From positions 1 to 64,000 of the forward strand of contig JAJDAC010000050.1 of NCBI GenBank assembly GCA_029262065.1: 64,000 nt of DNA. The letters are read 5' to 3'. Made by a program: the position numbers and the translations under genes. Positions 25,293-53,701 of this stretch are shown here, piece by piece (the first letter of the stretch is position 1; every line of letters starts with the position of its first letter). This stretch comes from Candidatus Krumholzibacteriota bacterium (lineage in GTDB: Bacteria > Krumholzibacteriota > Krumholzibacteriia > JAJRXK01). The notes below the pieces were generated by a model. That model searched no databases, had not been told where the DNA came from, and saw only the letters and a program-made list of their open reading frames with translations.

Positions 25293-27515
25293 ATGGAATT
25301 CGACAACCGACGTATCCGAAACGGGTTGGCTCCATTGGCGGGCATCCTGGCCCTTATTCTTGCCGATGCGTCGAGCGCCGGCCGAATTCCGGACGACGCT
25401 GACCTGCTATCGGCCGTGGCCGTATCGGTGGACGAACTGGCATCGTCCTGGCGCGCGCGGGGCCCGCGGGATCCGGGAACGCTGCGCGCCATGCTTCGCA
25501 CGGTCGAGCTGAATCGACTCGCGGGTCGGCGCGATCAGGCCGCGGTGCTCGTTGAGCGCTGTCGCCAAGTCGCTGATGCGGAGCTCGACCCAACCGACCC
25601 GCTTCGGATCGAACTCTGCTTCCAGGAGCTGCGGCTCAGCAAGAGCCACGGGGCCGAAGAGAAGTTCGCGCGGGCGCAGGCGAGCTATGACGAGGCCCAG
25701 CAGGTGCTGGCGGCCCACCCCAATGCGTTCCCCGAGCTTCAGGCCGACGTTTGGCAGGCGTGGGCCAACCACCTGCGATCGGTCGGTCAACTCGACGAGG
25801 CACTGGCTTTCTACCAGAAGGCACTTCGGTTGAGGCTCGAGTCGTCGTTGCCCAACGTTGCGTTGGCCAACAACCTTACCTGGTTGGCATGGGTTCAGTT
25901 TCTGTTGGAGAACCTGGAAGAGTCAGAGGCAGGTTTCCTCGAAGCAACGACCGTTCTTGACCAGCTGGGGCTTACCACCCATCCCCTTCGGTGCACGATC
26001 GAAGCGAATCTCGCTCGTTTTCGAGAGTTGGAGCATGACTCCGCCGCGGCTGGCGAGCATCTCGAGAACGCCATCGAGCATTGCAACAAAGCTCGGCGCG
26101 GTTTGCCTGTGGGCACTTCGCGCAGCGGTTTCGCGGTGCACGAGCACCGCGCGAGACTGGCGTTGTGGCAACACAAGAACGGGCATTCGCTCCAGAGTTG
26201 GAATCTTCTGAAGCATGGCCTGGGGGCCACGTCGACCGGCCACCTGGAGTTGTCCGCTCGCTCGGCCGATCTGCTCTCGGTTCCTGTTTCGTTGGATCCC
26301 ACGCAATCCGGTCCTCTGCGACGTGAGGAAATTGATGGGTTGGTCCGTGAAGTCCAGCGATTGATGCAGCAGCGTCAGGTAGTCGATGAAGACACAGCCT
26401 CAGACGAGTGGCCGCTTTCCCGGGTCCAGCGGTATCTGGATCCAAGCACGGCGATGCTGTCGTGGGTCGAGACGCCTGGATCTTCACCGGGCTCCGAGTT
26501 TCCCAACGTTCACGCGGTAGTCCTACGCGACAACGGCGACCCGCGTTGGATTGCGTTGTCTGGAGATGTACCGACACCCCAAGCAGAAACGGCCTGGGCG
26601 GCCCTGCAAAGGATCCGTCGACGCATGCAGGTGGCTAGCACGTGGCCGTACGGCGTCGCGGTGGACGATGAGCTGGAACTAGACGCACGCGCGGTGGGCT
26701 CGATGTTCTGGCAACCGCTGGAAGATGCCCTCGAGGGAGTGGATCGGGTCGTCCTGTTGCCGCCCTCCGGCAGGGTTCTCGCCGAGCTGCTTCAGTCGAG
26801 CGATGGAACGTGGTTCGGGGAGCGGTACCGGATAAGTTATTCGCCGTCGCCGGTTGCTCACGCTCAGTGGCGGGAGACCGCAACGCGAGCGAACGGCGGC
26901 CGCGCGTTGCTCGTGAGCCAGGCGAACGGATCGGATTCGTTGGCGGAGCTTCCGGGCGCCGCCGAAGAGGTTCGCGCGTTGGCATCCCTGTTCCCCTCGG
27001 TGCGCCGGTTCGGCGGTTCGACCGCGACTCTCGAGGCTCTGCAGGCCCTTGCCTCCAACGATTCGCTTGGCGGCTTCGACGTTCTGCATTTCGCCACGCA
27101 CGCCCAGGTCGAGTCGCGCATTCCCGAGCGTAGTTGGCTCGCGCTGTCCAACGGAAAACTGCGAGCCGATACCATTCTCTCCACATGGTCGCTGGACGCA
27201 TCTCTCGTCACCTTGAGCGCATGCCACACCGTTCGCTCGCCGTCGACCGGATCAGACTACACCGGCTTTGCCCAGTTCTTCCTCGGGGCCGGCGCGCGCT
27301 CGCTCCTGATGAGTCGCTGGAGGGTGGCCGACCGCCCTACTCGCGTGCTGATGGAGCGGTTCTATTTGAACTGGCTCGAGCGCGGCCTCGACCGCGCGGC
27401 GGCTCTACAGGAGGCCCAGGCTTGGCTGCGGCGTTGGCAAGACGAAGAGGGCCGCACGATCTGGGCCCATCCGGCGTACTGGGCGGGGTTTCTTCTCTAC
27501 GGCGACCCCGGTTGA
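25293..27515 (+). CDS. TPR-CHAT caspase-like protease, probably exported
   Basis: 740 residues. The N-terminus (residues ~10-28, G-L-A-P-L-A-G-I-L-A-L-I-L-A-D-A-S) looks like a signal peptide. Helical TPR-like repeats (~35-330) follow, then a CHAT domain (~370-740) with catalytic His603 in L-H-F-A-T-H-A and Cys644 in T-L-S-A-C-H-T, both with correct spacing and flanking strands. CHAT proteins are clan CD cysteine peptidases. Its placement opposite an ECF sigma/anti-sigma pair suggests it cleaves, or is controlled by, that pathway. Export is uncertain since the hydrophobic stretch is short. Confidence 0.85.
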   Translation: MEFDNRRIRNGLAPLAGILALILADASSAGRIPDDADLLSAVAVSVDELASSWRARGPRDPGTLRAMLRTVELNRLAGRRDQAAVLVERCRQVADAELDPTDPLRIELCFQELRLSKSHGAEEKFARAQASYDEAQQVLAAHPNAFPELQADVWQAWANHLRSVGQLDEALAFYQKALRLRLESSLPNVALANNLTWLAWVQFLLENLEESEAGFLEATTVLDQLGLTTHPLRCTIEANLARFRELEHDSAAAGEHLENAIEHCNKARRGLPVGTSRSGFAVHEHRARLALWQHKNGHSLQSWNLLKHGLGATSTGHLELSARSADLLSVPVSLDPTQSGPLRREEIDGLVREVQRLMQQRQVVDEDTASDEWPLSRVQRYLDPSTAMLSWVETPGSSPGSEFPNVHAVVLRDNGDPRWIALSGDVPTPQAETAWAALQRIRRRMQVASTWPYGVAVDDELELDARAVGSMFWQPLEDALEGVDRVVLLPPSGRVLAELLQSSDGTWFGERYRISYSPSPVAHAQWRETATRANGGRALLVSQANGSDSLAELPGAAEEVRALASLFPSVRRFGGSTATLEALQALASNDSLGGFDVLHFATHAQVESRIPERSWLALSNGKLRADTILSTWSLDASLVTLSACHTVRSPSTGSDYTGFAQFFLGAGARSLLMSRWRVADRPTRVLMERFYLNWLERGLDRAAALQEAQAWLRRWQDEEGRTIWAHPAYWAGFLLYGDPG

Positions 27516-47484: not shown

Positions 47485-47729
47485 TAGCGACGCGATCTAC
47501 GACGACATGCCATCGAGACAGCTTGCTTGAACCAACACAGATTTGACCAAGCACCCAAGTAAACCGTACCATTGAGGTGTCCGGGTTCTCCCATCTTCGC
47601 GCCGCGGGCGCAGGATACCCTCTAGTCCGACCCGGACGCGAAGCTACAACCCACCATGACCCATGGTGTCAGCGCGCGTTTGTCGCAGCTGAATGTTGTT
47701 TCCGTACATCATGCACCGGGAGAACTCGA

Positions 47730-48935
47730 ATGAACCTGTTCCGGAATCACCGTATTGCCGCAGTTGCCTTCGCCGTCATGTTGATGGTGGTCGGTTGCGG
47801 TGATGCTTTGGTCGAAAATACATCCCCTCTTACCGAAACCGCCGATCTAGCCCCGAACAAGACCGGCACACCCTCTTGGTTGGTCCTCATGCAGCCAGGA
47901 GTTGCCCCCGGCCCCGTGGCTTCTCGCAACCAGCTGACGGTGAGTGGTTACTATGCGGCGGGCGATCTGGCCCTGCTCGAGGGCAACGTTAACCCAGTCG
48001 ATCTTGAGAACGATCCCGACGTTTTTCTCGCTCAACAGAACCTGGCCATCAGCCTGGGGCCCATCGACTTGATCATGGGTTTCTACGAGGGCGAGCTGAC
48101 CATGACGAACGTTCGTACCCAACCCTCGCTCGCGCCCATGCTTCTGGACCAGGTCCACGCCGCGGCTGCGGGTGGACTGGTACGGGCGGCTGTCCTGGAC
48201 ACAGGTATTGATCCCAACCATTCCCATCTGGCCAACCGATGGATACTCGACCCCGTCGCCGAATTGGGCGATCCGTTCGAAGCCAAGAACAACCGCGACG
48301 ATGACTTCGACGGATTGACCGACGAGGGGTACGGCCACGGCACCCACGTGGCCGGAACCATTCTGACGGTGGCTCCTGGCGCCAAGGTAGTTCCCTACAA
48401 AGTACTCGGCGAAGACGGCAACGGCAGCGACTACACCTTGGCGGTGGGGTTGATGGCAGCCAAGAACGCGGCTGTGGACGTCATCAACATTAGCCTGAGC
48501 CTGAACGACAATTCGCCGGTGATCGAAGCGATTCTCGATCGTGCCAAAGCTCTTGGCATCGAAATTTTCGCAGCGGCGGGTAACACGGGTGCGGACCCGG
48601 TATTTCCGGCGACGCATTCTTCCGTGTGGTCGGTGGCCTCGACCGACGCTTCCGACGCCTTGTCAGCCTTCTCTGCACGCGGTGCCGTGGAATTCGCCGC
48701 ACCCGGCGAGGGAATTGTAAGCAGCTTCCCCAACCAACGCATGGCAGTGGGAGATGGCACCTCCATGGCATGTGCGGTGGCATCAGGAGCAGCGTGCCTC
48801 ATGCTCGGGCCGGGTCCGTACCTGGCCAATGACCCGCTGGCCGAATTGCGCGTGCACACTGCACCCATCACACCGGCCACCGCCGTCCACTCCGGTCGTG
48901 TCGATCCCTTCGAAGCCTACGAAATGGGACCGTAG
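47730..48935 (+). CDS. Subtilisin-like (S8) serine protease lipoprotein
   Basis: Start ATG 47730 with CGGGAG upstream; 401 residues. The type II signal peptide has lipobox M-V-V-G-C (Cys23). A prodomain-like part of ~120 residues precedes the S8 domain with the full triad: Asp157 in A-V-L-D-T-G-I-D, His203 in G-H-G-T-H-V-A-G, and Ser345 in G-T-S-M-A-C-A, plus oxyanion Asn285 in A-A-A-G-N-T-G. The domain is compact. It should act at the membrane surface facing the periplasm or outside. The stop is only 5 nt from that of the convergent TPR-CHAT gene. Confidence 0.9.
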   Translation: MNLFRNHRIAAVAFAVMLMVVGCGDALVENTSPLTETADLAPNKTGTPSWLVLMQPGVAPGPVASRNQLTVSGYYAAGDLALLEGNVNPVDLENDPDVFLAQQNLAISLGPIDLIMGFYEGELTMTNVRTQPSLAPMLLDQVHAAAAGGLVRAAVLDTGIDPNHSHLANRWILDPVAELGDPFEAKNNRDDDFDGLTDEGYGHGTHVAGTILTVAPGAKVVPYKVLGEDGNGSDYTLAVGLMAAKNAAVDVINISLSLNDNSPVIEAILDRAKALGIEIFAAAGNTGADPVFPATHSSVWSVASTDASDALSAFSARGAVEFAAPGEGIVSSFPNQRMAVGDGTSMACAVASGAACLMLGPGPYLANDPLAELRVHTAPITPATAVHSGRVDPFEAYEMGP

Positions 48936-48940
48936 GTCTC

Positions 48941-51697
48941 TTACGAGGCCACCAGAAACGGGGCCCAACTGAAGGGATGGGGCATTTCGCGGCGGAGGTC
49001 GCGCCGAGCCAAATCGGCTGCCTCCGCCGCGTCCATTCCCGTGGTCCAGTGCCCATAGAATTTCTTCGCGAATGCCTGCACCGATCGATCGTCCAATCGC
49101 CAGAGCGTGAGCACCATCTCCTTGGCGCCCGCACCGAATGCTACCGACATCCAGCCGTCGGGATCGAAGCCGGGCAAAGCATAGTCCAGGCCCGATTCGC
49201 AGCTACCGAAGAACACGAGAGCCTCGTTCAAACGCGCGGCATCGAGATGCTCGAACCCCAACCATCCGTCGGCCAGGCGAAGGCCATTGGATAGCCACCG
49301 GCCGGGGTCGTAGCAACCGTGCGCCGCGACGTGAAGCAGCGACACCGCGTCGTGCTTCTTTTCGTACTCGCGGCGGCGGCTGGCCGTATCCACGTGGAAC
49401 CCCTCGCCGCGAAGCAGGTGACGCAATTGTGCGATCTCTGCTTTGGAGCCTTCTGAACCGTCGTGCATGAGCATGACACGGCCTTCCCGTTTCCGCGGCG
49501 ATCGATCCCTCCGCAAAAGGGCCGGATGAGGTAGTCGCGACAACGTGAACGGCGATTCGCCCGACATCGGAAGGCACTCGAGCGGAAGAGAACGCAAAGG
49601 TCCCGAGGGAATCAGAACCACTCGCTTCCTCTGCAAGGGCAATGGGTCCAGAATTTCCTGCCGCAACTCGACGAGGGCCCGGTTGGCCTCCTGAAGTGTT
49701 TCGTCGAGAATCTGATCACGCCGCGAGAGTGGCAGGTGGGACGCCTGTTCCAAGGAAAGCCTAACTGGAAGCCATGACTCGTGAACCGCTTCTAGCGCCC
49801 GGGGTAGATCGACTCGTTCGACGGCGTGTTCGGAATCGACAACGTAGGCTGCGCAACTCGACTCCCGCGCGTCGAAAAAAACGACGGCCCGATCTCCCAA
49901 GTGCGGCGCCCACTGCTCGTATCGGCGCCGTTCGATTGCGCGCCTGGTCGTGGCCGGAAAGCTGCGCAGCTTGCGCGCGAGCTTCGCGTCGAGATCCGTG
50001 AGGGATCGTTCGAGCTGTTGCGAGCGGATATCGCTGGGAGTCTGTCTGGTCTGATCCAGAAGTTCCTCGCGTAGGCGAGTGATCGATGCGCGCAGCTCGG
50101 GGTCGAGGCCGGTGTCCTTGCGCAGCATGGCCTCTATCAGTTGTGGAGCCTTCGCTCGACTCAGTAGGTCGAGTGCTCGGCGAGGGGCGGCTGGCCCGCC
50201 CAACTTCAGCACCAAGTCGATAGCTCGTTCGTACACGTCTTCGCGGGAACCGGCGATGAGGGTCTGGATGACGCGGCTTCCCAGGGTCATATGTAGCTGT
50301 TCAACTCCGTCGACAGCGCGTCCCATCCAGCGCAGGCTGCCGCGGGTGTCACCCGCCGCGACCTGGGCTTGCGCACAGATCAGCGCCATCCAGGGCCTCT
50401 CGAATCGCATGGGATAGGTGCGCGCCATTGAGTGGGATTGTCGTGCGATTGCAAAGGCCCGCGCATGATTTCCCTTGGCCAGATGAGCAGCGGCGGTGAT
50501 GTGTCGGCACCGGAGTCCTCCCATCTTGGGATCCTTGCGTGTGAGATAGCGGCCGGCCGTTTTCAGCAGGGCGAGCGCTGCGTCGGCCTCGTGGTGCTGC
50601 AGAAGAATGGAGGCAAGTTCTACTTCGGTGCGATGTCGGGCGGTCACGTCGCCACTGTCTCTCAGATGCCTCAGTGCCGATTCAATCTGTGACCGAGCCT
50701 CGAATGGCCGCCCAAGAGCACTCATGATGCGACCGCGCAGCAACGCCAGATGGGCTACCGAGCGGGAAAGGCCCTGAGTTTCATAGGCGGCCTGAGACCG
50801 ACCGGCCATCTCATGGGCCGTTTCGAGCGCGCCCACGGCGGCCAGAAACTGAGCCAACTCACGCTGCACCGACGCGGTGGCGCGCGCGTCACCTAGTTTT
50901 TCGAACTCGGATAGGAGGTCTTCCAGGGACTCTTGCGCGGCGCCCGTGTCTCCTTCCAGTAGATCCACGATCGCCAGACTGAACTGAGCGTAGAGCTGCT
51001 GGGCGCGACGGCGCCCACGCACGAACTCGTCGAGTGCACTCTCGATCTCGCGTCGCGCTTCGTGTGGACGCGCCAGGTAGATAAGCGCGTGGCCCAGATT
51101 GTAGGTCGCTATTGCCCAATCTTGCTGGAACCCCACTCTGCGAAACGTGTTTCGGGCCTTGCGATAGCTGTGTGCCGACGACTCGAAGTGGCCGCAAAGG
51201 TACTCCGTGTTGCCGCGATTGGAGTGTAAGCGCGCTCTCAGGATCGGCTTGTTGCGTGGAATTCGCCGTCGCGTCAATTCGGCGATTTGCCGTGCTTCTT
51301 CGTAGCGGCCCAGCTGGGCAAGCACGTTTAGCCAGCCGATTCCGGTGATGGCCATCTGCTCACCGTCGTCTTGCTTCTCGAAGTCCTGCCAGGCTCGACG
51401 GTACTCGGAATCGGCGTCCGTGTATTTTCCCAGGGCGGTGAAGAGGTGGCCGCGCAATCGACGCAGCGCAGTCTGTTCGGTGGGCATCAACCGTCGTGTG
51501 TCCGATGGCCGGACTCGGTCAAGCGCTTGCAATGCCTCGGCGGGGTCCACGCGAGAGTGGGTCATGAGCGCCGCGTAGAACCGCTTGAAGGGCTGTTCCG
51601 CGCCGCGCGCTGCCCACTGATCTACCCACGTTGCGTCGGCCGGCGCAGCGATCCACCGCCGAACATTCCGGGCCAGGGTTCGCGCAGACGGGGTCAT
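48941..51697 (-). CDS. TPR-CHAT caspase-like protease, cytoplasmic
   Basis: The start at ATG 51697 overlaps the preceding stop (ATGA). 918 residues with no signal peptide. About 500 residues of TPR-like helices (~20-530) are followed by a linker and a C-terminal CHAT domain (~620-918) with catalytic His793 in L-L-H-V-A-A-H-G and Cys833 in V-F-F-G-S-C-E-S-G. CHAT proteases cleave specific proteins when an upstream sensor is engaged; Craspase and gasdermin-cleaving enzymes are known examples. It is the third gene of an operon with an ECF sigma factor and a small soluble protein, which is a natural candidate substrate (inference). Confidence 0.88.
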   Translation of the reverse strand: MTPSARTLARNVRRWIAAPADATWVDQWAARGAEQPFKRFYAALMTHSRVDPAEALQALDRVRPSDTRRLMPTEQTALRRLRGHLFTALGKYTDADSEYRRAWQDFEKQDDGEQMAITGIGWLNVLAQLGRYEEARQIAELTRRRIPRNKPILRARLHSNRGNTEYLCGHFESSAHSYRKARNTFRRVGFQQDWAIATYNLGHALIYLARPHEARREIESALDEFVRGRRRAQQLYAQFSLAIVDLLEGDTGAAQESLEDLLSEFEKLGDARATASVQRELAQFLAAVGALETAHEMAGRSQAAYETQGLSRSVAHLALLRGRIMSALGRPFEARSQIESALRHLRDSGDVTARHRTEVELASILLQHHEADAALALLKTAGRYLTRKDPKMGGLRCRHITAAAHLAKGNHARAFAIARQSHSMARTYPMRFERPWMALICAQAQVAAGDTRGSLRWMGRAVDGVEQLHMTLGSRVIQTLIAGSREDVYERAIDLVLKLGGPAAPRRALDLLSRAKAPQLIEAMLRKDTGLDPELRASITRLREELLDQTRQTPSDIRSQQLERSLTDLDAKLARKLRSFPATTRRAIERRRYEQWAPHLGDRAVVFFDARESSCAAYVVDSEHAVERVDLPRALEAVHESWLPVRLSLEQASHLPLSRRDQILDETLQEANRALVELRQEILDPLPLQRKRVVLIPSGPLRSLPLECLPMSGESPFTLSRLPHPALLRRDRSPRKREGRVMLMHDGSEGSKAEIAQLRHLLRGEGFHVDTASRRREYEKKHDAVSLLHVAAHGCYDPGRWLSNGLRLADGWLGFEHLDAARLNEALVFFGSCESGLDYALPGFDPDGWMSVAFGAGAKEMVLTLWRLDDRSVQAFAKKFYGHWTTGMDAAEAADLARRDLRREMPHPFSWAPFLVAS

Positions 51698-52167
51698 GAT
51701 TCGGGTCGGAAAATCGCTACCGACCCGTCGGCCAGGTGGAATTCCAGGCGCCAACCCGGCAACAGCACTTCCTCGAACTCGAACACTTCGCCGTGGGCAA
51801 CCTCATGAGTGGCCATGACGCTCTGGTGGCGAGCCAATACCACGAGGATGACCTCTTCGCTGCGAGGGTTCAACCAGCTCCGGCCCTTGATGACGGACAG
51901 ATGTTCACCGGTCGGCCGCTGAATGCTCACTGTAACGTCGATGCCGTCGAGGTTTCGCGTCACGAACGAGCTCTGCGGCTGGGTGTGCGTGCCGGCTGCG
52001 CGAACGTCGGTTGGTGACACGGAATGGGCTGTGTCGGCATCGCTTGGCCGAGGCACCGGCGCATCTCGGTGCATTTGGCCAACGGCATCGACCAAATCAG
52101 ACGGCGCGGGCGCCCAGTCTACGTCTATGGCGTCTTGATATTGATTGAGGAGGTCATTCCATTTCAT
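51694..52167 (-). CDS. Small soluble protein between the ECF sigma factor and TPR-CHAT
   Basis: 157 residues starting at ATG 52167, overlapping the sigma stop (ATGA) and itself overlapping the CHAT start. It has no membrane helix, signal peptide or anti-sigma zinc finger. The N-terminal ~25 residues are helical (M-K-W-N-D-L-L-N-Q-Y-Q-D-A), then a ~45-residue proline/serine-rich flexible linker, then a beta-rich domain (~75-157, I-D-V-T-V-S-I-Q-R-P through W-R-L-E-F-H-L-A-D-G-S). Helix, exposed linker and domain would suit a cleavable sigma-binding protein. Not recognised as a known family. Confidence 0.75.
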   Translation of the reverse strand: MKWNDLLNQYQDAIDVDWAPAPSDLVDAVGQMHRDAPVPRPSDADTAHSVSPTDVRAAGTHTQPQSSFVTRNLDGIDVTVSIQRPTGEHLSVIKGRSWLNPRSEEVILVVLARHQSVMATHEVAHGEVFEFEEVLLPGWRLEFHLADGSVAIFRPES

Positions 52168-52724
52168 TGTTCGGACTCCAGGAGTTTGCGTAGGCTCCGT
52201 AGACACCGCGTTCGCAGCGGACCGACGCTGTGGGACATGAGTCCCATGTCGTCTGAAATCTCCTGATACGTGGACTTTCGACTCGAGTAGAAGAGCATTC
52301 TAAGTAGGCGTTCGCAGCGGTCGCTGATCTTGCCCAGGGCTACTTCGAGTTCGTGCCTCTGCTCCAGTGCCACGAGGTGTGCATCGGCACCGGGCGCCGG
52401 TTCGATGCTGTCTTCTTGTACGTCATGAAGCCATCGTGAGGCGACCACGGCATTGCGATAGGCGATACGTCGGGTCGTGACCACCAGCCATCGCGGCACC
52501 GCGCGGAGGTTGTCGATCCTATCCAGGGATCGATGCAACTCCATCCACACCTGTTGAAACACGTCGTTGGCCACATCGGTGTCGATTCCCGTTTGCATGG
52601 CGGCTGAGTACACCAGATTGCTGTACCGAGCTACCAGTTCCCGCCAAGCGAGATCGTCACCCTCGATGCATCGAGAGAGCAGTTCGTCGTTGTCGAAAGG
52701 GTCCTTGTTGGTTCCGTGTTCCAT
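52164..52724 (-). CDS. ECF-family sigma factor of the CHAT operon
   Basis: The start chosen is ATG 52724; earlier in-frame starts (52748 or further) would add an unusual N-terminus. 186 residues. Sigma region 2: Y-S-N-L-V-Y-S-A-A-M, D-V-A-N-D-V-F-Q-Q-V-W-M-E-L-H, then W-L-V-V-T-T-R-R-I-A-Y-R. Region 4: L-R-M-L-F-Y-S-S-R-K-S-T-Y-Q-E-I-S, then M-S-H-S-V-G-P-L-R-T-R-C-L-R-S-L-R-K-L-L. There is no zinc-finger anti-sigma next to it, so control probably comes from the two coupled downstream proteins. Confidence 0.88.
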   Translation of the reverse strand: MEHGTNKDPFDNDELLSRCIEGDDLAWRELVARYSNLVYSAAMQTGIDTDVANDVFQQVWMELHRSLDRIDNLRAVPRWLVVTTRRIAYRNAVVASRWLHDVQEDSIEPAPGADAHLVALEQRHELEVALGKISDRCERLLRMLFYSSRKSTYQEISDDMGLMSHSVGPLRTRCLRSLRKLLESEQ

Positions 52725-52891
52725 AAGACCGCCGGGCTGGGTGCCCATTGATTCGCGGGTCGTCTCCCTGGTTTTCCCTCTAGTCCAGACCGGGCGTCGC
52801 CAAGACCTGGGCCCTGATGACGATCCGGATGCGACCTGCGTTTCTCTGGTCACCCAGCTCGGTGAGGGAGGCCGACATGTGCTGACCTCAC

Positions 52892-52953
52892 ACACATGTG
52901 TACGCAGCTCGCAAATTCGTTCACATCATGACGCACTTTTCAGGAAATTTCCA
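52892..52953. promoter_or_regulatory. Two perfect 10-bp palindromes upstream of the sigma/CHAT operon
   Basis: ACACATGTGT at 52892-52901 (with another ACATGTG at 52875) and GGAAATTTCC at 52944-52953 lie 168-230 nt before the sigma start, between the operon and the small Cys-rich gene. They are possible operators; no factor can be named. Confidence 0.3.
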
Positions 52954-53007: not shown

Positions 53008-53427
53008 CTAACTGGCGTTGTAGCGGAGTCCACCGCAATGACCGTTCAGCACGTCTTCCCATGACGTACCTGGGGTCAGAGCCAGCGTGTGGGTCTTGCC
53101 ACACGCCGAATAGGTGAGCACATTGTTCTGCGATCCGCACAGGATAGCGGTCTCGGGTCCGCCCGAACAGCCAGAGGCGACACAATCGGTCGAGAACGAG
53201 ACCAGCACAAATGGGACACCTTGCTCACAGACAGGGTAGGGCGGCGGTCCTGTGTATTCGGTAAGGGTGATGGTGGCGCGGCAACCGTTGTCGGACTTGT
53301 AGCAGGTGGTGCTACCCGAACCCACGGCCGACCCAACCGGGGCCATCAGGCCAATAGCGACTATCGACACCGTAATCACTGCGAGAACGGCGAACAGGCG
53401 ACCGCGTTGTTGAAAGGCACGAGTCAT
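53008..53427 (-). CDS. Small exported Cys-rich protein
   Basis: Start ATG 53427 with AAGGAGAC upstream. 139 residues with signal peptide (L-F-A-V-L-A-V-I-T-V-S-I-V-A-I-G-L, cleavage after G-S-A). The ~100-residue mature part has eight cysteines (C-Y-K-S-D-N-G-C, V-C-E, D-C-V-A-S-G-C, L-C-G, A-C-G-K, H-C-G-G) and beta character. The disulfide-stabilised fold is unknown. It is monocistronic, with a strong terminator behind it and about 270 nt of non-coding sequence before it. Confidence 0.75.
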   Translation of the reverse strand: MTRAFQQRGRLFAVLAVITVSIVAIGLMAPVGSAVGSGSTTCYKSDNGCRATITLTEYTGPPPYPVCEQGVPFVLVSFSTDCVASGCSGGPETAILCGSQNNVLTYSACGKTHTLALTPGTSWEDVLNGHCGGLRYNAS

Positions 53428-53701
53428 GATCGTCTCCTTGAATTCTAGACTTACGAACATGAAGACTCGACCGCCGCGCGTAAGAATGCGTCGCTGGAGA
53501 AGACACCCCGGCGTTCACCCGAACGACTACGTCGGATCGATATCTTTACTATGGAGGGATTTGCGGAGAACGATCAGAGTCGAGGAGGGAAATGCCCTGA
53601 CCGGTTTCAAACTTACGACATGCGAGCGCGGAGTTCAAGTGAAAGCGCGAAGCCCCGAGCCAAAGGCCCGGGGCTTCACTTGCATCGAGTCAGCCTTACG
53701 A
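53428..53701. other. Non-coding gap with a terminator hairpin
   Basis: No convincing gene is seen. The gap holds the leader of the Cys-rich gene and, at its right end, a strong stem that belongs to the lipoprotein gene at 53702. Open frames crossing it have no coding features. Confidence 0.5.
53649..53677 (-). terminator. Terminator hairpin after the BsuPI-like lipoprotein gene
   Basis: GAAGCCCCG / CGGGGCTTC continues through one mismatch into GCC/GGC with an AAA loop, about 13 pairs in all. It lies 24 nt beyond the lipoprotein stop at 53702 (minus strand). Confidence 0.65.

Follow-up and report, generated by a model that had tools for sequence, protein, structure and literature searches.

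Can a caspase-like protease and an ECF sigma factor form a regulatory relay in a genome where no RAMP-type RNA-guided effector was found to join them? This question is raised by a three-gene operon within a window of 64,000 nucleotides (the whole stretch of DNA that was analyzed) from a Candidatus Krumholzibacteriota bacterium, which belongs to a little-known bacterial group. The operon and the features associated with it are as follows.

52164..52724, minus strand: ECF sigma factor of 186 amino acids (ATG at 52724, stop at 52164), matching Sigma70_r2 (3.5e-7) and TIGR02937 (3.8e-19).
51694..52167, minus strand: middle protein of 157 amino acids (ATG at 52167, stop at 51694), a predicted degenerate class I anti-sigma factor in which the zinc motif is lost and the W-x-x-x-P helix is kept, followed by a disordered linker and a beta-sandwich.
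52000..52008, minus strand: D54-V55-R56 codons of the middle gene, encoding the invariant D-x-R within the predicted-disordered linker; candidate CHAT cut site.
48941..51697, minus strand: TPR-CHAT caspase-like protease of 918 amino acids (ATG at 51697, stop at 48941), with His793 and Cys833.
47730..48935, plus strand: S8 subtilase with a lipoprotein signal (MNLFRNHRIAAVAFAVMLMVVGC), convergent with the CHAT gene at a distance of 5 bp and with its D/H/S triad kept; predicted output of the module.
52864..52894, minus strand: weak, low-confidence match to the promoter motif (TGTGTGAGGTCAGCACATGTCGGCC), 170 bp upstream of the sigma start and rank 14 on its strand.

As the original prediction stated, the three minus-strand genes are joined by two 4-nucleotide ATGA overlaps, in which the stop codon of the sigma gene overlaps the start of the middle gene and the stop codon of the middle gene overlaps the start of the CHAT gene. 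The sigma factor contains only the sigma2 and sigma4 regions and scores well above the cut-off of the ECF model (TIGR02937, 68.9 bits versus 42.9). The protease combines TPR repeats with a CHAT domain (Pfam PF12770, 3.6e-25; 89.4 bits versus a cut-off of 24). Its catalytic His and Cys, which the same prediction had placed at residues 793 and 833, are present there and are invariant among the CHAT proteins of trio loci (13 of 13). The middle protein has no Pfam matches.

We give a probability of about 0.5 to the reading in which the operon encodes an autonomous, autoregulated proteolytic sigma switch, with a caspase-like protease that frees a sigma factor from its anti-sigma factor. The middle protein, as a class I anti-sigma factor, would sequester the ECF sigma factor by means of a part resembling helix 4 and, in its relatives, also by a zinc-bearing three-helix bundle. 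The TPR part of the cytoplasmic TPR-CHAT protease would sense a signal and thereby activate the protease, and the CHAT domain would then cut the anti-sigma factor in its disordered linker, beside the invariant Arg of D-x-R. The cut would separate the sigma-binding part from the beta-sandwich, which is probably a docking domain, and so free the sigma factor. The free sigma factor would recognize a promoter motif with the short form TGTATCA-N14-GGCCCTTCT and transcribe its own operon, together with the neighboring exported lipoprotein subtilase and some neighboring lipoproteins. What the computations support is that the operon is conserved, that the middle protein is of anti-sigma ancestry, that the catalytic residues are intact, that the disordered linker contains an invariant motif and that many loci share a promoter motif; we infer that the sigma factor is bound, that cleavage occurs and where it does, and which part is the sensor. 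We regard the proteolytic step as plausible.

The trio is conserved, a point on which the original prediction had been staked beforehand, and is found at roughly 20 loci, in Krumholzibacteriota as well as in other bacteria. Gene order, strand and overlapping or nearly overlapping junctions recur across the trio loci, so the arrangement of sigma, middle and CHAT genes is not due to chance. The genome that contains the window (5.77 Mb in 59 contigs, with 32 CHAT genes) holds seven complete trios, namely the window and L051-L056, in addition to one sigma-middle pair that has no adjoining CHAT gene (L050) and two CHAT-subtilase loci of a related kind (L057 and L068). Trios or partial trios also occur in genomes G001-G003 (L061-L066), G082 (L084/L098), G084 (L111), G089 (L108-L110) and G098 (L107), and in G083, a metagenome-assembled genome (MAG) labeled Gemmatimonadetes (L099). 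A second sigma-middle pair without a CHAT gene is present in G082 (L097).

A search with the middle protein alone revealed eight copies in the window's genome, including that of the window, and a further six spread over three genomes from its family; within this small phylum, the middle protein was found only in the window's own family. Named relatives of the window's CHAT protein belong mostly to Candidatus Krumholzibacteriota MAGs. The scan of genome contigs for relatives used CHAT, and the middle-protein alignment is too variable to yield a pattern. A tree of the sigma factors is poorly resolved, includes an L054 row that is out of frame, and supports no claim.

Several middle proteins retain features that point to their ancestry. 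Eight of them (L052, L053, L054, L056, L066, L099, L108 and L111), including one from a MAG labeled Gemmatimonadetes, carry H-x5-W ... H-x3-C-x2-C, which is the motif of zinc anti-sigma factors, at the N-terminus. The L099 protein matches the zf-HC2 model just under its cut-off (2e-4; 21.8 versus 22.2 bits), and those of L052, L054 and L066 have weak matches to RsrA or general anti-sigma models. The AlphaFold2 model of the L111 protein comprises helices at residues 10-17, 23-35 and 37-54, another at 63-70, and then a beta-sandwich. This predicted three-helix bundle with a separate fourth helix is the layout of class I anti-sigma factors, a group whose zinc and non-zinc members intermix and in which sigma2 is bound by helix 4 (PMC7406223). 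The relatives of the middle protein resemble RsrA, ChrR and RseA, which share this fold, are encoded in ECF sigma operons and, in their zinc forms, have H-x3-C-x2-C (PMC7406223). In contrast to these class I anti-sigma factors, the module's protein has a disordered D-x-R linker and a beta-sandwich attached, and its operon includes a CHAT protease.

The copy in the window has diverged further. Its AlphaFold2 model agrees with the helix, linker and beta domain originally proposed: two short helices are left (3-14 and 23-30), and disordered residues separate them from a beta-sandwich that spans 66-153. Anti-sigma helices 1-3 have been lost and, unlike in zinc class I anti-sigma factors, so has the zinc bundle; inhibition by this copy may be weak or of another kind. 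Because eight relatives carry the zinc motif within a predicted anti-sigma fold and the window copy has lost that motif, we take the window's middle protein to be, in all likelihood, a class I anti-sigma factor that has degenerated. For the family as a whole, sequence motifs and structure models make the anti-sigma identity well supported. The earlier statement that the operon has no zinc-finger anti-sigma factor holds for the window copy but not for the family. The proposal that the middle protein inhibits the sigma factor gains a family recognizable as anti-sigma through its zinc-bearing paralogues, with sigma binding itself a presumed property. Foldseek searches of both middle-protein models against the PDB returned nothing under E 0.001 and only generic beta-sandwiches, which indicate no family. 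At L068, the genes that come after related sigma genes encode proteins whose N-terminus is anti-sigma-like, and a zinc-like protein of this locus matches the middle-protein profile over its N-terminal part (E 4e-5, probability 70%).

In the window protein, the linker that leads from the helices to the beta-sandwich is predicted to be disordered, with a confidence (pLDDT) under 50 at residues 45-50 and 52-62. Across the family this linker has a median pairwise identity of 0.12 (12%), whereas its residues D54 and R56 are shared by all 20 aligned middle proteins (pairwise identity 1.0). The residue after the Arg is Gly, Ala or Ser, and the only exception to D-x-R that was seen is a paralogue outside the 20-sequence alignment (L109, D-S-M-R-A). 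So short an invariant motif in a disordered region suggests protease recognition or docking. The solved structures closest to the CHAT profile are the Craspase CHAT/Csx29 chains (2e-6), followed by separase, and separases require Arg at P1 and cut after it (PMC4626109). The CHAT protein is a candidate separase-like protease for which D-x-R is a candidate cut site. By contrast, the cut site of Csx30, which lies in a flexible loop, has no essential sequence (PMC10028731), a point against the cut-site reading. The sigma-middle pairs at L050 and L097 keep D-x-R despite having no adjoining CHAT gene, which also counts against that reading, and the motif could instead serve in docking.

These two pairs also lend some weight to the possibility that the anti-sigma factor releases its sigma factor without being cut. 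Release might then follow from binding of TPR-CHAT or a ligand to the beta-sandwich, or from a zinc or redox change in the zinc-bearing copies, and the target of CHAT would be something else; it might, for instance, cut another protein of the cell and so serve as an effector of stress or death. Conformational change is the usual mode for soluble zinc anti-sigma factors (PMC8999054). However, many copies, that of the window among them, no longer have the zinc motif, it is difficult to see why D-x-R would be invariant in a disordered region unless a protease or docking partner recognizes it, and the CHAT catalytic residues are all kept. We consider release without proteolysis unlikely, although not far-fetched.

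Among known systems, one of the closest to the proposed proteolytic sigma switch is Craspase, a type III-E CRISPR system in which a TPR-CHAT protease cleaves Csx30, the protein that restrains an ECF-type sigma factor (PMC10028731). Like the Csx29, Csx30 and CASP-sigma proteins of that system, the module combines a TPR-CHAT protease, a sigma-restraining protein and an ECF sigma factor, with restraint in the module being predicted. Craspase has an RNA-guided effector, whereas the window's genome (95.6% complete) has no match to RAMP (PF03787), the family that includes Cas7-11/gRAMP-type effectors. A type III CRISPR link was rejected on this ground, and the result supports the idea that any such relay here would operate without a CRISPR part. 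The two systems also differ in that Csx30 is cut at residues 427-429 (PMC10028731), whereas the module's middle protein is 157 amino acids in total, and in that anti-sigma ancestry, the invariant D-x-R and the predicted subtilase output are features of the module. In the open-access literature we found no description of such an operon, which is not proof of absence.

The subtilase gene was listed as an ORF at 47577-48935, and its probable start is at 47730. A subtilase adjoins most module loci in varying orientation, and its Asp, His and Ser catalytic motifs are conserved. Because lipobox-like matches occur in 17 of 19 scanned copies (that of L052 being unconvincing), the subtilase is predicted to be an exported lipoprotein.

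A de novo search for pairs of boxes in the upstream regions of the sigma and subtilase genes revealed GTATC-N16/17-GCCC in 9 of 32 regions, versus at most 5 for any box pair in shuffled sequences. The refined motif is TGTATCA-N14-[GC]GCCC[CT]TCT. An initial scan with a loose pattern gave 23 matches versus 18 in shuffled sequence, which is about equal, and the promoter claim is therefore carried by a leave-one-locus-out test and a strict genome-wide search. In the former, the best site within 350 bp upstream was taken to pass with a score over 12 and a rank of 1 or 2 on the whole strand; 10 of 19 sigma operons (L051, L052, L053, L054, L055, L062, L066, L084, L099 and L111) and 5 of 17 subtilase genes (L053, L062, L066, L110 and L111) pass. 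Several gene starts in this test were estimates, made from the conserved protein region when the first sites were already known. The L061 sigma operon and the L064 subtilase gene are borderline (each 11.6, rank 1). The strict pattern has nine matches in seven whole genomes, of which four are at the L111 locus, two at L062, one at L055 and two elsewhere, whereas its reversed control has three in all.

The leave-one-out scan found no clear copy of the motif at the window operon and several other operons. The sequence GTACAC is common to the window, L050 and L107 in the same upstream region, and is perhaps a diverged promoter. Since the motif lies upstream of many sigma operons and some subtilase genes, we predict that the module's output is the subtilase, a role that the upstream sequences support fairly well for the family but not at the window. 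The motif also precedes other genes, whose products are lipoproteins or are secreted; among them are CARDB lipoproteins, at L111 as well as at L055.

These predicted targets bear on whether the module might be an abortive-infection or conflict system, in which infection would trigger CHAT and the sigma factor would mainly raise toxic outputs such as the subtilase. Predicted conflict systems do pair caspase-like proteases with ECF sigma factors (PMC8195603), and there are several paralogues of the module per genome. However, exported lipoproteins are more suggestive of an envelope or secretion response, and the PADLOC matches are to general TPR and subtilase models only, with no specific defense system. 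We consider a role in conflict very unlikely; at the level of mechanism, it is compatible with the proteolytic sigma switch.

Subtilase and CHAT genes near a sigma gene are also characteristic of the ECF54 group. The passages of PMC8999054 that concern ECF54 (Casas-Pastor 2021; Huang 2015) propose proteolytic control without an anti-sigma factor, because carboxypeptidase, subtilase and CHAT domains occur in its context. The window's sigma gene likewise has CHAT and subtilase genes nearby, a likeness of gene context alone. In those passages ECF54 is stated to lack an anti-sigma factor, whereas the window module has a small protein of anti-sigma ancestry whose gene overlaps the sigma gene. An ECF54-like layout is also present in Nonomuraea (L090), where a subtilase gene and a CHAT gene accompany a sigma gene that has the same GSIGPTR region-4 motif and is overlapped by a small gene. 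The Nonomuraea subtilase has no signal peptide by eye, whereas those of the module are predicted lipoproteins. The small protein was rejected as a homologue of the middle protein, as the profile comparison is not significant and only the layout is alike.

Proteases might act on the sigma factor itself, as proposed for ECF54, with the middle protein as an adaptor or protease inhibitor. But middle-protein paralogues show the zinc anti-sigma motif and a class I anti-sigma fold, and subtilases that are predicted exported lipoproteins would be unable to reach a cytoplasmic sigma factor. This arrangement seems to us quite unlikely. Overall, the relay of the original prediction is partly borne out, by the conserved trio, the anti-sigma relatives, the invariant CHAT residues and the Craspase-like CHAT profile, but that prediction missed the subtilase, the promoter motif and the ECF54 group.

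We tentatively propose, at somewhat less than even odds, that these loci form a guide-free, genome-multiplied family of CHAT/anti-sigma/ECF relays, in which a separase-like cut at D-x-R would release a sigma factor that acts on its own operon and on an exported subtilase. Such a family would be both a CRISPR-independent counterpart of the sigma arm of Craspase and the source of the missing anti-sigma factor of ECF54-like systems. The switch looks like one known from a CRISPR system, minus the CRISPR part. If this is true, protease-to-sigma signaling of the Craspase type exists without RNA guidance and has multiplied within one genome. ECF54-like sigma factors, which have been described as having no anti-sigma factor, would gain a candidate inhibitor, cut site, promoter and output, and specific predictions, based on the D-x-R and promoter motifs, would take the place of a loose genomic association.

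Most CHAT-domain genes in the genome to which the window belongs (32 across its 5.77 Mb) lie outside the module of ECF sigma factor, middle protein and TPR-CHAT protein. One such gene, of a different kind and outside any trio, is found in the window itself at 25293-27515 (+), where an open frame of 743 amino acids includes a CHAT domain (E 1.9e-52).

Sigma-middle pairs that carry the linker motif D-x-R also occur with no detected adjoining CHAT or subtilase gene, at L050, in the same genome, and at L097, in another:

L050 4212-5227, (-), sigma-middle pair with D-x-R
L097 6888-8095, (+), sigma-middle pair with D-x-R

At L068 (5201-12150), a CHAT-subtilase locus of the window's genome is flanked by two sigma genes. 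The anti-sigma-like proteins encoded after these two genes differ from each other: one is zinc-like, the other is not.

The main promoter motif has no clear copy in the window's own subgroup (the window, L050 and L107, a related locus in another genome), whose members share the sequence GTACAC (about 52895-52905 in the window) ahead of the sigma gene, with much the same spacing to its start. Also upstream of the window's sigma operon, 53008-53460 (-) encodes a small protein that is rich in Cys and has a hydrophobic N-terminus; other loci have no similar gene.

Copies of the main promoter motif precede lipoprotein genes, CARDB lipoproteins among them, at both L111 (10904-11829), in another genome, and L055 (14339), in the window's genome. 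These genes are possibly further members of the regulon.
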